NCBI GenBank assembly: GCA_019247695.1
Contig: JAFBAP010000027.1
Span: 1 to 62,327 of the forward strand
Length of the DNA stretch: 62,327 nucleotides
Source: Verrucomicrobiota bacterium
GTDB taxonomy: Bacteria > Verrucomicrobiota > Verrucomicrobiia > Chthoniobacterales > JAFAMB01
Reading direction: 5' to 3'
In this document: piece after piece, positions 14,738-47,825 of the stretch
How positions within the stretch are numbered: the stretch's first letter is position 1
Layout: each line of letters begins with the position of its first letter
The notes under the pieces: model-generated
Databases searched by the model: none
Told to the model about the DNA's origin: nothing
What the model saw: only the letters and a program-made list of their open reading frames with translations
Position numbers and translations under genes: made by a program

Positions 14738-14910
14738 ATACCATTCAGATAATTGTCCTGGTAGAATGCCGGCCCAGGGGGATGCCGGCGCCGGAGGATG
14801 CTCCGGACTTGGTTGAATCGGTCACGCTTTCTGCCGCCCCTTTCAGGGCTGAGTCGTGGGACGGAAGACAAAAATTTTACCTCAATGGCCGTCGAAATGA
14901 TATCAGCCCT
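14738..14910. repeat. Dispersed repeat: inverted A-type copy followed by B-type tail
   Basis: Positions 14738-14825 hold an inverted copy of the A-type repeat (ATACCATTCAGATAATTG, then GGTAGAATGCCGG, then GGAGGATGCTCCGG). It is followed by the CCCCTTTCAGGGCTGA palindrome fragment and, at about 14867-14905, a B-type tail (GACAAAAATTTTACCTC then GTCGAAATGATATCAG). The remaining bases between the cyclase gene (start 14639) and trpC (14992) hold no gene I can support. Confidence 0.75.
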
Positions 14911-40714: not shown

Positions 40715-40866
40715 TGCGGATCAAACGTAAACGCGTGACTAACCACAGGGTCGACAGCGGCCCTGGGGGTGCGGTTCCTTGCGAGCTGCTCAAGCCCGGG
40801 GCATGCGTTCGGCCGGAGCGTCTGGCTAACCCCATCTGGGCGCGGCGGCCGTGTTTGTGGCGGACT

Positions 40867-41492
40867 GATACCATTTCGACGGCCATGGAGGTAAAATTTT
40901 GCCTTCCTTCCCGGGTACCCTGCCAGCGTTACACCTATTGGACCGTATACACCGGCTAAGCCAAACGGGCCGGTAGACGGTTTGATGGCCTGAAGGGCCA
41001 AAGGAACATAGCCCAGGGTTTACCCCGCATCCATTTAGTTAAGGGCCGCTGGATGGGGGCGCTTTGGTCCCGAAGGGACGGCTGAGGTTAGCCAAGGACT
41101 TCGGTCCCTGTGAAGGCGTTCCCCCCGGGGTTGCGTCCCCTCGGGACGCCTGAAGGCGGGCGCCGGGCCACAGGCGGGCGCCAAAGGTTGGGCGCCGTTC
41201 GGGTGTTCGTCGCCGAGGGTCGGGCCGGGTTTGGCCGGCCGCTTGGGAGCCGGCACCCTGCGGGGCAGCGTTTCAGGCGTCCCTACAGGACGCGATCGCT
41301 CTTAAATGCCCCGTCCAGGGACTGAAGTCCCTGGCTAACCTCAGCCGTCCCTTCGGGACCAAAGCGCCCCCATCCAGCGGCCCTTAACTAAATGGATGCG
41401 GGGTAAACCCTGGGCTATGTTCCAGCGCCCCTTCGGGGCTGAAATCCGGTCGAGATGTTACCGGGATAATCGTCTAAATGGTATGAGGGGAT
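40867..41492. repeat. Composite hairpin-repeat island with 99-bp inverted repeat
   Basis: Starts with an inverted B-type tail (40867-40904) and a C-type tail (about 40928-40970). Arms 41003-41101 and 41325-41423 are inverted copies with one mismatch over 99 bp, each containing the CAGGGTTTACC, TTAGTTAAGGGCCGC and GGTCCCGAAGGGACGG modules. The 223-bp interior holds the CGTTCGGGTGTTCGTCGCCG block shared with 41907-42000. A partial A tail ends at 41490. No gene supported. Confidence 0.85.
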
Positions 41493-41736
41493 GAATACTT
41501 CTCAAGAAGGGGCCGTTCGAAGCCGACGAACCCGGCAAGAGGTTCGGTTCAGCAATTGGTGAGCGCCTTCCCCGCCAGTGGGTTTACCCGCCCGGGGCTT
41601 CTGCCGGCAGCCCTGCTCAGGGCGCACTCTTCCACTTTCGAACATCGGGCGCACCCCTGAACGTGCTCCCCGGGTCGGAATGACGCTCAAGTCTTGCCTT
41701 CCCCAGGGCCAGGCGCTTGCGGTAGGATGATGGGCA

Positions 41737-41880
41737 ATGCTTTGGACAATCATTGTTGTGTTGGTAGTGCTGTGGGCGCTGGGGTTGATCGGTCACGTGG
41801 GCGGCGCCCTGATTCACCTCTTGTTAGTCATCGCGGTGATCGTGCTGGTGGTGCGGCTGGTTCAAGGCCGCGCGCCTTGA
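41737..41880 (+). CDS. Lmo0937-like small membrane protein, 47 residues
   Basis: A very short gene. The product is almost entirely hydrophobic, with two membrane segments (LWTIIVVLVVLWALGLIG and ALIHLLLVIAVIVLVVRLV) joined by HVGG and ending with QGRAP. This matches the Lmo0937 family of about 45-50 residue proteins of unknown role, often stress-linked. AGGA lies about ten bases upstream of the ATG. It is enclosed by hairpin-repeat islands on both sides. Confidence 0.82.
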   Translation: MLWTIIVVLVVLWALGLIGHVGGALIHLLLVIAVIVLVVRLVQGRAP

Positions 41881-41882
41881 CG

Positions 41883-42490
41883 CAAGCGGGCGTCAACGGT
41901 GGGGAGAGCCGTTCGGGTGTTCGTCGCCGAGGGTCGTGCCGCGTTTGGCCGGCCGTTTGGGAGTCGGCACCCTCCGGGGCAGCGTTTCAGGCGTCCCGAC
42001 GGGACGCGATCGCTCTTAAATGGCCTCACAGGGACTGAAGGCCCTGTGCCTGTGCGGGCGTTCCCCAGGGGTTGAGGTGCCTGCCAGATTTACACCTATC
42101 AGACCGTATAAACGGTCTAGGCCCAACGGGCCGGCAGAACATAGCCCAGGGTTTACCCTGGGAACGCACCCCTCCCCGATCGAGCCCTGAAGGGGCGGAA
42201 GAACCCGCGAGCCACGCCTTCTGCCGCCCCTTCAGGGCTGGATCATGATTTTACGGTTACCCAGGGTAAACCCTGGGCTATGTTCTCTTGGCCCTTCGGG
42301 CCGTAAGACGATCATGGCTGTCCCCGCGCTGCCCTCAAAAAATGCGGGTAAAGCTCAGGGGTAAACCCTGGGCTATGTTCTGCCGGCCCGTTGGGCCTAA
42401 AACCGATTCAACCAAGTGCGGAGCATCCTCCGGCGGCGACACCCCCCTCCAGCCGGCATTCTACCGAGATAGCTGCCTGAATGGTATAGG
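41883..42490. repeat. Composite hairpin-repeat island
   Basis: Begins 3 bases after the small membrane protein gene with a 40-bp block matching the reverse complement of bases 1-40, then a direct copy of 41190-41330. Then an inverted C-type tail with head (about 42083-42133), three copies of the TTTACCCTGGG palindrome, CCCCTTCAGGGCTG palindromes, and a full A-type repeat (42385-42489) with head GGCCCGTTGGGCCTAAAAC and tail ending TGAATGGTATAG. Bases 42491-42619 hold nothing else. Confidence 0.85.
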
Positions 42491-42619
42491 ATCAGCCGTC
42501 CCTGCGGGACGAAGGCCACGCCCGGCCGTCTCACTCGTGCAACGAGCAGCTCCACCAACTTCAAAACCGGTGTAAATGGCACTACCGGTCACAACCCCAC
42601 CGTCGGTGAAAATTCCGGG

Positions 42620-44239: not shown

Positions 44240-45415
44240 TTACCCCGCCCGGTTCCAGCCCCGCCCCTGATCGCCGAACCCCTCACAACCCGTGTCGGTA
44301 ACCGCGACGGTATCCTCGAGCTTGATGAACCCGCGTCCGGGATGCTTCATCGTGGTCTCGATGGAGATGACCATGCCGGTCTCCAACGGCCGGGCCCCGT
44401 CGTAGCCGTTGTAAGACTCATTGTCGATCAAGCGCGGCGCTTCATGACTGATCAGGCCAATGCCGTGCGCCATGAAATCCAGGTAGGCTCGGTGAGGCGA
44501 GGCGTCAACCAACTCGTGGACGGCCGCGAAGATCTCGGATCCCGTCGCACCCCGGCGAATCGGGCGGCGTGCCCGCTGTTGAATCTCGTCAACCGCACCA
44601 AGAAGGTCCGCCAGTTCGGCGTCAGGCTCGCCCAGAATGCCCATCCGGCACAAATCCCCCAGGTAACCCTGATAGCTCCCCCCGGAATCAAGTGAAATGA
44701 TGTCGCCGGCCTCGAGACGCTGGCCGGAGGGCGCGCGGTTGAGGTTGGTGCCGGCCGTGATCAGGCAGTAATCGAAGGTCAGCCCCCGCCCGACTTCCTC
44801 TCGCCGTAACCGGTCGACGACCTCAGTTTTCGTCTGGCCAGGCGCGCACCCGTCAAACGCCGCGAGCATCGAGGCCACGACGCGTTCGGACGCCTCGCGC
44901 AATTGCGTGAGCTCGGCTTGTGTCTTGCACGCGCGCAGCCGTTCCAACGGGAACCCGGCGTCGACGATCCGGCACTGGCTGAGCCCGTCCCGGAGCGCCT
45001 GGGCCGCATCCCAGGGGAGGAATGGCGCCTCGACGCCAACCTTGCGAACCGGTCCGGGCAAACCCTTGATGTACTCGATCGCGCTTTGAGCCGCGCCGGT
45101 ACTGGTGCTGACGGCTGTCTCGATCACCCGAGGCCAGAATTTGCCGAGCTCCTTCTCGTAATCCTCGAGCTCGGAGCCGATATAGGCCGTGTTGTCAGGG
45201 CGGCCCTTCTGATAGACCACGACCGGCAGATAGCGGCTTACCCCCATGGCATCCATGTGCTCGAAGAAAAAGAAGCGATAGCCACCCAGCAGGTATTGCA
45301 CGTTGTGCTTGGAGGTCACCACGAGAACGTCGACACCCTCGTCGTCGAGCAAGGCGTCGAGTCGCGCCGTGTCAAAGGGCGCAGCCTTTACCGCATCATG
45401 TTGAGCTTTGTTCAT
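44240..45415 (-). CDS. M24-family metallopeptidase (Xaa-Pro peptidase/creatinase-like)
   Basis: A 391-residue pita-bread-fold enzyme. The N-terminal creatinase-like domain (1-170) is followed by the catalytic domain with two-metal ligands visible in order: ISLDSGGSYQGYLGDLCR (two Asp), FMAHGIGLISHEAPR (His), VISIETTM (Glu) and IKLEDTVAVT (Glu). It probably removes proline-containing dipeptide ends or acts on a small amide. I start at 45415; an upstream start at 45502 would add 29 residues encoded by the adjacent repeat island. Confidence 0.9.
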   Translation of the reverse strand: MNKAQHDAVKAAPFDTARLDALLDDEGVDVLVVTSKHNVQYLLGGYRFFFFEHMDAMGVSRYLPVVVYQKGRPDNTAYIGSELEDYEKELGKFWPRVIETAVSTSTGAAQSAIEYIKGLPGPVRKVGVEAPFLPWDAAQALRDGLSQCRIVDAGFPLERLRACKTQAELTQLREASERVVASMLAAFDGCAPGQTKTEVVDRLRREEVGRGLTFDYCLITAGTNLNRAPSGQRLEAGDIISLDSGGSYQGYLGDLCRMGILGEPDAELADLLGAVDEIQQRARRPIRRGATGSEIFAAVHELVDASPHRAYLDFMAHGIGLISHEAPRLIDNESYNGYDGARPLETGMVISIETTMKHPGRGFIKLEDTVAVTDTGCEGFGDQGRGWNRAG

Positions 45416-45860
45416 GTCCACAGATAAAACAGAATCGTCCGCAGAACACGCAGACCACGCAGAAAAGAGAAAGCATCCACAGATTACACAGATGAAGGTC
45501 ACACGGTCACGCGGCGGCCGCAGCGGAGAAGAATCACACGGCGCCGCGGCGGAACACGGCGACCACGGCGGGAAGAGGAAAGGGTTTAGCGTTCGGGGCT
45601 CGGCGCGGCATCTTGGGGGTAGGTGCGAGTGCCAAGCTTGGAACCCAGCCTTCCCGCCGTGTGACCCTTAGTCTGTGTAATCTGTGTAATTTGTGGATGT
45701 TTTCTCTTTTCTGCGTCCTTCTGCGTGCTCTGCGGATGATTCTTTTAATCTGTGGATCCGCCGTGGTCGCCGTGGCTCGCCGTGGTCGCCGTGTGAACTC
45801 TTACGTTGTGCCCGCCAGACCCGCTGTGGCCACCGTGCCCGCCGTGTGACTGAGTTCCAC
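45416..45860. repeat. Degenerate short-unit repeat island R5
   Basis: The left part (about 45430-45500: CCGCAGAACACGCAGACC, AAGAGAAAGCATCCACAG, ATTACACAGATGAAGGTCAC) is an inverted copy of the right part (about 45660-45745). The centre holds ACGGCGACCACGGCGGGAAG and unrelated bases. The right end has GCCGTGGTCGCCGTGG with GTGTGAACTCTTACGTTG. It lies between the fbp gene and the peptidase gene, both on the minus strand. Confidence 0.85.
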
Positions 45861-47825
45861 TTACCCGGGGAACCGCTGGGGCAGTTCGTGGTTACGGTAG
45901 GCTTCGACGAGGCGTTCAAGTTGATTGATGGCCAGACGAAGCTGCCGGCCGCGCTGGCCGTGGGCCACGCGCCGCGGCCAGTCCCATTCCCGCACCACCG
46001 TACGGCTCGGAACGATATCCGCCCCCTGCTCGAGAGCAGCCTGCACCGATTCGAAATGGTGGTGCGTGGCGATGAAGGTCCGCAACGGCTCCAGCACCAG
46101 GGTAAACCCGTGATCACCGTAGGCCTCGGAAAACGCCCCGTCGATGGTCACCGCCTTGCCGCTCTTTTTCAGGGGCGACTCGCCCTTTTCGAGCCTCACC
46201 GGCACGTGGCCGTTGACGATCATGCCCGCCTCGGGATCAACGCCGAACTCGGCCAGCACTTTCTCGCAAAACCAGACTTCGTGAATCAGGCGGAAATACG
46301 GGTTCTTGGTTTCGTGATAGGTGTTTGCATCGGCCACGAAATCGCGTTCGAACGTCGTGATGCGATCCTTGCCGAACAGCGGCGACTGCGGCCCGCTCCA
46401 CAGGTACCAGAACAGGTCCAAACTTTCCGGGGTATCCGGCCCGTGCTCCATCACGCGGTAAATCTCGCGCTCGATGGATTCGAAAAGCGCTTTCCCACGG
46501 TAGGGGCATCCGGCAACCGTCATCGGCAAAAATTCGCCCTGTTCATCGACCGGCACGCAGCCGTGGAAGATCAGGTGACCTTCGCGCACCAGGTGCATGT
46601 GACCGTGCGCCGCCATCCAGCGGATCTGCTCCCAGAGCTTATCGCTCGCCAGAAACGACCCGCGCAGCCGGTTCATGCATTCCTGTTCCTCGGGGCTTAA
46701 CGCGTAAGGGTCTGCCGGGTCGACCGTCGGCAGGTACGCGTCCTTGAGCGGGTAAGCGGTCCCGTCCAGCTCGACGGTGCCGGCGGCGTGATCGATCCGG
46801 TGCAACAACCGCCGGTGCTCCATTCCCCACTCGGGGTGCCGCGCGATCATCTGGCCCTCAAGCTTGAACTGCATCACCGCGGCCGCCTTCTGCATTCGCG
46901 CCACAGTGATGGCTTCGCGCAACCCGATACCCTTGACGGCGAAACTCGTCGCCGGGTCATCCCCGTAGATCGTACGGGCGAGGCGATCCAGTGCCGCCAA
47001 CGGGATGCCGTAACCTTCCTCCAGCTGCAACAATCGCCGGTAACGCAGGGAGATACGCAACACCTGACAGATAAGCGCTTCATGCCCCAGACACGCGCCG
47101 ATCCAGGACGCGTCGTGGTTGCCCCACACCAGGGCAACTTTAGGCTGCTGCATGAGGTAATCGACGACCCGATCGCCCCGGGGCCCGCGGTCCCAGCAAT
47201 CCCCGGCGATGACTAACTCGTCGATGGCCAGGTTACGGATCACCCGGCCGGTAAGGTGAATCAGGTGCAACAGACGGTCGTGACTCGCCAGCGCGTCGAC
47301 GATGGCGTCGACGTAATCGCGATGGCGGTCGGTCGAAGGCGCATGCAGGATTTCGGTAAAGAGTTCCCGGTACTCAGCCGGAAAGACGCGCGTGGCGTGC
47401 CGGAGGCTGCGCCGGGCCGCCAGTACCCGTACTACGGTAAACAACTCGTACAGCGTGCGTTGCGCGTACGCTTTGCGTTCCTCGACGCTCTGCAGGGTGC
47501 GCTCGAGCCGGCCCACGACTTCAGCCGGGTAAAAGATCAGCGCCAGAAATTCACGGAAACGTTCCGGGGTCATGTGTTCCTCGAAAAGCCGCTCGACCAG
47601 GGGCCGCAGCGTGCCCGAAGCATTGTTGATGACGTGGCGCAGCTTCTGATCCTCGCCGTGAACGTCGCTGATGACGTGAATGGTGCCCTGAGGCAAGGTC
47701 AATTCGGCCGAGTAACGCGCGATCTCAGCCACGGCCGCGTCCACGTTGGGCACCTCGCGAGACAATGGGTGCAGGCTCACCAATTCGCGCTCGCGAATCA
47801 CATCCTCACCGTCGGTCAGTTCCAT
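45861..47825 (-). CDS. fbp: Fructose-1,6-bisphosphatase, class III
   Basis: Gluconeogenic phosphatase of the class III type first known from Firmicutes, 654 residues. Metal-binding phosphoesterase motifs are visible in order: HVISDVHGEDQK, IAGDCWDRGPRGDRVVDYL, VALVWGNHDASW and, near the C-terminus, IVNGHVPVR. Length and layout fit the family. It is a stand-alone gene. Presence of this enzyme next to ackA-pta and sugar importers fits a heterotroph that must run gluconeogenesis from small acids. Confidence 0.95.
   Translation of the reverse strand: MELTDGEDVIRERELVSLHPLSREVPNVDAAVAEIARYSAELTLPQGTIHVISDVHGEDQKLRHVINNASGTLRPLVERLFEEHMTPERFREFLALIFYPAEVVGRLERTLQSVEERKAYAQRTLYELFTVVRVLAARRSLRHATRVFPAEYRELFTEILHAPSTDRHRDYVDAIVDALASHDRLLHLIHLTGRVIRNLAIDELVIAGDCWDRGPRGDRVVDYLMQQPKVALVWGNHDASWIGACLGHEALICQVLRISLRYRRLLQLEEGYGIPLAALDRLARTIYGDDPATSFAVKGIGLREAITVARMQKAAAVMQFKLEGQMIARHPEWGMEHRRLLHRIDHAAGTVELDGTAYPLKDAYLPTVDPADPYALSPEEQECMNRLRGSFLASDKLWEQIRWMAAHGHMHLVREGHLIFHGCVPVDEQGEFLPMTVAGCPYRGKALFESIEREIYRVMEHGPDTPESLDLFWYLWSGPQSPLFGKDRITTFERDFVADANTYHETKNPYFRLIHEVWFCEKVLAEFGVDPEAGMIVNGHVPVRLEKGESPLKKSGKAVTIDGAFSEAYGDHGFTLVLEPLRTFIATHHHFESVQAALEQGADIVPSRTVVREWDWPRRVAHGQRGRQLRLAINQLERLVEAYRNHELPQRFPG

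Follow-up and report, generated by a model that had tools for sequence, protein, structure and literature searches.

Layers of the inverted repeat

The window, that is, the whole stretch of 62,327 nt analysed here, carries an inverted repeat at 41003-41423, the arms of which (41003-41102 and 41324-41423) are 100-nt reverse complements with a single mismatch (A versus G at 41095) and lie 221 bp apart. Looser pairing extends the arms to 133 nt at 91% identity. A previous sequence-only reading, which gave 99 bp with one mismatch around a 223-bp block, was off by 1-2 bases, and the three hairpin modules that it described in each arm were found as the palindromes GGGTTTACCC, GTCCCGAAGGGAC and CARGGACTTCRGTCCCTG. 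As single-stranded DNA, the 421 nt fold with an energy of -207 kcal/mol against a mean of -92.5 for shuffled sequences (z = -26.4), a value equalled by none of 100 shuffles; the inverted repeat is thus genuine and well outside what chance would produce. No convincing gene was seen across it, the list of open reading frames giving mechanical frames only, and no tRNA was found within the window.

Conservation runs on beyond the arms in many copies (27 aligned), out to ATACCATT...AATGGTAT. In the window this outermost layer (layer 1) is an element of 615 bp (40869-41483, plus strand) with the left end TACCATTTCGACGGCCATGG (A type) and the right end TACCATTTAGACGATTATCC (C type, read on the minus strand). 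It shows two features expected of a MITE of an IS5/IS1031-like element: TIRs at both ends (TACCATT), and a 3-bp target duplication of the form TNA, here TGA at 40866-40868 and TGA at 41484-41486. Within it lies layer 2, a hairpin unit named REP-1, in two halves. The left half (40987-41025, minus strand) consists of hairpin A (40987-40999), a spacer and half of hairpin B (41012-41025), and the right half (41402-41439, plus strand) of half of hairpin B (41402-41414), a spacer and hairpin A′ (41427-41439). Between the two halves is layer 3, a palindromic element (41026-41401, ends accurate to about 3 nt) whose TIR has the consensus CTGCCATTTAGTTAAGG and takes the form CATCCATTTAGTTAAGG in each arm here. 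Layer 4, the REP-2 unit (41066-41360), is made up of hairpins A2 (41067-41079), B2 (41093-41110) and C2 (41133-41149), a core (41150-41276), and hairpins C2′ (41277-41293), B2′ (41316-41333) and A2′ (41347-41359). The right end of REP-2 (41315-41360, plus strand) matches the Rfam family Acido-Lenti-1 (RF01687) with 46.3 bits, the gathering score being 37, and its left end, in the left arm (41066-41111, minus strand), matches with 31.5 bits, below that score.

The same reading had proposed a composite mobile cassette with modular ends. The locus is indeed a modular composite and apparently mobile DNA, but what moves does not end at the arms. The best-defined ends are further out, at 40869 and 41483, next to the 3-bp duplication, and each arm is one half, left or right, of layers 2 to 4, which also occur separately. 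The block between the arms had been reported to recur at 41907-42050 and in part at 1-100, and it does so partially, as a truncated copy of the core with C2′ and B2′ (41864-42046, plus strand) and a truncated copy of the core with an arm at the contig start (1-206, minus strand).

Copies across the genome

The draft genome (5.19 Mb, 191 contigs, 96.7% complete) was searched with 40860-41500, which gave 136 matches at E ≤0.01 among the scored candidates. The absence of a second copy with the order arm-core-arm, together with free divergence of the arms, had been named as what would speak against the cassette; that order recurs at no fewer than 26 other loci (matches spanning query positions 205-502, which cover the core and the greater part of both arms, with the best 40 of 255 candidates scored), and the arms of other copies do diverge, usually being different variants of each other. 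Among 12 relatives, matches at E ≤1e-10 were found only in G001, of the same genus (seven, the longest of about 190 bases).

The A-end pattern of layer 1 (ATACCATTTCGAYGRC) was found, with at most 2 mismatches allowed, at 66+63 genomic sites, compared with 1+0 for the reversed pattern. From 80 fetched regions plus the window we collected 149 distinct outer ends of three types, from which 46 pairs of 88-870 bp were made mechanically: 36 A-B, 4 A-C, 6 A-A and no B-B. In these pairings A and B/C thus act as the two ends of one family. A T stands two bases outside ATACC at 124 of the 149 ends, and TNA is present on each side in 38 of the 46 pairs. The flanking 3-mers are identical in 20 pairs (19 TNA, 1 TGT), shuffling giving a mean of 8.2 and a maximum of 18 in 20,000 trials, and identical flanking 4-mers occur in none of the 46. 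In the other 26 pairs the 3-mers differ, as expected of old, recombined or chance pairs, and at least one (L116, 152 bp) looks like a chance pairing. No transposase gene was found between TACCATT ends among six PF01609 and two PF13340 loci in this genome and one PF13340 locus in G006; single matches resembling an outer end (3-4 mismatches, or a core with one mismatch) occur at L281, L284 and L286. At another place (L345, G000:C170:142-369) a DDE_Tnp_1 reading frame directly abuts an outer-MITE end, just outside the MITE.

The TIR of layer 3, CTGCCATTTAGTTAAGG, occurs at 53+60 genomic sites versus 2+4 for the reversed pattern. Half a REP-1 hairpin abuts 50 of 54 inner ends (44 by a strict pattern, which is present at 144 of 20,000 random window positions, and 6 by eye), the remaining four having none. 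Furthermore, L063 and L112 combine the A end with an unsplit hairpin B region, L063 also having the same C end; they are short counterparts of the window element, and intact ones of its left REP-1 half. Of 20 paired layer-3 elements, six measure 87-93 bp and contain one central hairpin, and the others 272-652 bp. When the content of the 46 outer elements was called by simple patterns, which miss degraded modules, no module was detected in 6, REP-1 only in 24, layer 3 in 14 and REP-2 in 13. Layer 3 was accompanied by REP-1 in 12 of its 14 elements and REP-2 by layer 3 in 11 of its 13, so that the layers are largely hierarchical. The nesting recurs, since an outer-type end adjoins a REP-2 hairpin at three places by one strict pattern, including one in the window near 42487. 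No clean target duplication of layer 3 was obtained; when the loops were compared by eye, inverted and direct matches were about equally frequent.

REP-1 also exists unsplit by layer 3, as a REPIN-like pair of inverted hairpins in many copies. In the example at 42120-42302, hairpins A (42120-42132), B (42145-42162) and C (42184-42196) face C′ (42226-42238), B′ (42260-42277) and A′ (42290-42302), and RF01687 matches at 42119-42162 (minus strand) with 39.8 bits. Among 101 RF01687 matches tabulated for this genome, neighbours form 12 -+ pairs, 3 --, 2 ++ and no +- pair. The GTAG/GTGG foot of canonical REPs is absent, REP-1 reading CATAG or CTTAG before hairpin B, and we therefore do not file it as a canonical GTAG REP.

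RF01687 and Y1 transposase genes

Both REP-1 and REP-2 match RF01687, two places in the window being above the gathering cut-off. In the whole genome at least 73 matches exceed it (best 150 of 2028 candidates scored). Rfam has filed the family as an sRNA gene since 2010, and Table 1 of PMC2864571 rates it as probably RNA. Within the library searched, no title or abstract opening listed for Acido-Lenti-1 or RF01687 connects the family with transposases.

There are two Y1_Tnp genes in this genome. The one on contig C153 has REP-1 on either side, in the arrangement A-B-C, gene, C′-B′-A′, the upstream side being recognised by Rfam as well. Its homologue in G001 (81% identity) has the same mirrored flanking hairpins. 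Most of ten further homologues (41-55% identity) are flanked by mirrored hairpins of other sequence, as judged by eye; at one, L133 (46% identity), no such hairpins were seen by eye. REP-2 ends were found at neither of the two Y1 genes of this genome, and the A and C hairpins flanking a Y1 gene of G004 (L127) resemble REP-2 by eye. The second Y1 gene (L001, G000:C19:62262-62624) is followed by a divergent frame that reads like a putative IS605-type tnpB.

Of 42 Y1 loci taken from this genome and related ones, RF01687 scores above its cut-off in 2, which suggests that its model describes one sequence variant of a broader structural type. A larger set of named loci was drawn from GTDB genomes scanned with a 10-row alignment; the best 80 loci were kept and 60 of them scanned with Rfam. 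The 20 others (L246, L247, L250, L252 and L256-L271) are largely from Bacteroidota, so that the rate of positives, 10 of 60, is not that of a fair sample. These ten loci contain 16 matches, of which 15 lie within 300 bp of the gene, a zone that makes up 11.6% of the flanking bases (binomial P = 1.4e-13, ignoring clustering within loci and neighbouring genes in the outer flanks). Twelve of the 15 near matches are mirrored, that is, on the minus strand upstream or on the plus strand downstream, and three have the other orientation. Among the hosts of the ten loci are Terriglobus albidus DSM 26559, a Terriglobia MAG, Verrucomicrobiota and Planctomycetota, as well as MAGs of Saprospiraceae, Chthonomonas and Deltaproteobacteria. 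The first of these, a cultured host, has at least 121 RF01687 matches. Searches of whole genomes gave RF01687 above cut-off in 15 of 15 genomes versus 0 of 14 controls; ten of the 15 had been picked for their locus match and five (L192, L193, L227, L231 and L253) had not.

An earlier hairpin scan of the Y1 loci gave mostly unconvincing matches and was replaced by the Rfam scans and by a mirror test independent of Rfam, in which the 220 nt upstream of the gene were compared with the 220 nt downstream in reverse complement and significance levels were taken from swapped pairs. The 99% level was exceeded at 41 of 77 loci and the 95% level at 52, compared with 0 of 59 above 99% at a distance of 1 kb. 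In direct orientation 12 of 77 exceeded the 99% level, as palindromes would. All 10 rows of alignment A1 have the motif Y---Q--HH, as do 78 of the 80 named proteins, the latter count being partly circular since one retrieval pattern contained the motif. Assigned by this motif rather than by a tree, the proteins probably belong to HUH/Y1 subclass 1.2, which PMC6006769 defines by Y---Q--HH and low copy number and describes as generally without the typical IS200 terminal structures.

Repeats in other genomes

Across 38 genomes, RF01687 was found at E ≤1e-5 in 17: in 12 of the 15 with this Y1 clade and in 5 of the 23 others (Fisher P = 7e-4), with clade membership taken from 51 of about 100 listed Y1 loci. 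The correlation is only supportive, and G029, with 56 RF01687 matches, counts against it. In G005, which holds one of the two positives among the 42 Y1 loci, the match at that locus is the only one of the genome at E ≤1e-5.

Of the 61 RF01687 matches of G041, the 44 listed give 17 neighbouring pairs, and 16 of these are inverted at 96-107 nt. Their consensus reads A-B-C-spacer-C′-B′-A′. Around the REP pair of G041 (L287-L302) conservation continues for some 60 nt on each side, possibly as part of another carrier element.

In G029, a genome of another family in the same order, an RF01687 half unit lies inside a 142-144-bp element, CTGCC...GGCAG (L307-L326), which by its anatomy appears to be a MITE. 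Both ends are present in 15 of 20 fetched stretches, and each of the 15 has the same 3-mer, TTA or TAA, on its two sides; as just two 3-mers occur, shuffling the flanks already gives 7.8 (P = 0.00025). Neither a transposase nor a longer autonomous form of this element was found in 16 more stretches with its ends, in which the MITE interior was seen. These stretches lie mostly at contig ends, and one (L334) has a second, interrupted end. Many contigs of the G029 draft end inside a copy of CTGCC...GGCAG.

Interpretation and alternatives

We consider it probable (roughly 0.7) that the locus is a nested stack of non-autonomous mobile elements, and that RF01687 represents the DNA termini of subclass 1.2 Y1 transposases rather than a small RNA. 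The outer MITE, with its TACCATT repeats, would have inserted at a TNA site and duplicated 3 bp of it, the simplest agent being an IS5/IS1031-like DDE transposase acting in trans. It carries REP-1, the kind of hairpin that flanks the HUH/Y1 gene on C153 of the same genome. The loop of REP-1 hairpin B holds the palindromic element with CTGCCATTTAGTTAAGG repeats, presumably as a later insertion. At the centre of this element REP-2, another hairpin unit built in the same way, surrounds the short core. The RF01687 hairpins may fold as the single-stranded DNA ends of subclass 1.2 Y1 transposases, and the family would have spread in part as a passenger of DDE-type MITEs. Both readings, of the locus as nested MITEs and of RF01687 as transposase ends, seem likely to us, and the enzymes named are candidates.

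In a wider scheme, which we put forward tentatively and at somewhat less than even odds, two engines would be at work. That is, single-stranded DNA hairpins of subclass 1.2 would spread both as inverted pairs of their own and by riding along in DDE-type MITEs with TNA/TWA duplications, the loops of palindromes serving as the next landing sites, with nesting in a preferred order and recurrence of the stack in itself. This genome and G029, which belong to different families of one order, suggest a general partnership of both engines.

The alternative offered by Rfam is that the hairpins are small regulatory RNA genes and the inverted repeat two such genes facing each other. The 46.3-bit match to a family typed as an sRNA gene and the rating in PMC2864571 argue for it, and a repeat, too, can be transcribed. 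We nevertheless think it quite unlikely, given that RF01687 behaves as repeats do: at least 73 matches exceed the cut-off in one genome, matches adjoin Y1 genes on both sides, inverted pairs of almost constant spacing occur in G041, and in G029 it sits in MITE copies with target duplications at 15 of 15 sites. A cassette with the two 99-bp arms as transposition ends and the 221-bp core as cargo would explain why the order arm-core-arm is kept at so many other loci. However, the arms run on into outer sequence, the 3-bp duplication lies at the ends of that sequence, parts of the arms exist without the core, and the two arms of other copies usually differ from each other; this cassette is very improbable, and arms as transposition ends were rejected on these grounds.

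The layered element may be real and the near-perfect identity of its arms still an assembly artefact, the reads of one arm having been used for both. The arms of the window copy are 98.1% identical, compared with at most 90.4% in the 19 others of 20 inner copies, and GCATCCATTTAGTTAAGG, common to both arms, was present in this copy only among 286 loci examined, the three loci listed for it all being this same place; the assembly is, moreover, a draft of many contigs. Against this, one mismatch between the arms has been kept, and template switching or gene conversion within a palindrome homogenises arms in the same way. We consider such an artefact possible though rather unlikely. The near-identity is in any case exceptional and not a defining feature of the element, its cause probably being either later homogenisation or an assembly effect.

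With the nested stack as the preferred reading, the nearest concept is that of the TIRtrons. TIRtrons/TIRYTs (PMC3733652) are described as having a Y1 gene within long inverted repeats, some of them palindromic and repeated in the genome, and as occurring in Acidobacteria; a Y1 gene with flanking long inverted repeats is likewise what was found here. TIRYTs are, however, mostly of subclass 2.1 according to PMC6006769, whereas the present genes have the signature of subclass 1.2 and repeats matching RF01687. With TnpA-Y1 subclass 1.2, as described in PMC6006769, they share Y---Q--HH and a small number of Y1 genes per genome (two in this one). That subclass is mostly from Cyanobacteria and Bacteroidetes, whereas the hosts here are largely Verrucomicrobiota, Planctomycetota and Acidobacteriota, and it is described without terminal structures, whereas many of the Y1 genes here have mirrored hairpins. 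REPINs/BIMEs (RAYT, TnpA-REP) are similar in being inverted pairs of short hairpins in many copies, with the same hairpins beside a Y1 gene. They differ in having one tagged hairpin per end rather than three, and the units here lack the GTAG foot and go with a Y---Q--HH Y1 protein. The Rfam family itself agrees with the repeats in sequence and structure, above the gathering score, and differs in being an sRNA gene in Rfam and a putative transposon end here.

The IS1031 group of IS5, to be compared together with its MITEs, is described in PMC12016507 as having TNA targets and exclusively 3-bp duplications, a rule with which layer 1 agrees; the terminus of layer 1, TACCATT, is unlike that of the one IS1031-group element compared (ISLrh, GAACCTG). 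Layer 3, which sits in a REP hairpin, resembles the REP-targeting insertion sequences of PMC1525189 and differs from them in that its 87-93-bp forms are without coding capacity. If the proposed reading is true, an Rfam family filed as sRNA since 2010 would gain a different identity, and an HUH transposase subclass described as generally without terminal structures would gain its ends. Moreover, stacking of MITEs and REPs in a preferred order would make the spread of REPs beyond their own transposase directly testable.

Further repeats in the window

A short outer-type element of 166 bp lies at 14738-14903 (minus strand) and has no REP or inner layer detectable by simple patterns. A B-type outer end at 42498-42510 adjoins a REP-2 A hairpin at 42462-42487, which points to insertion of an outer element into a stretch of REP-2. 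Finally, at 45408-46117 the frames between genes contain SAEHA.HAEK-like repeats on both strands, which suggests another dispersed or tandem repeat.
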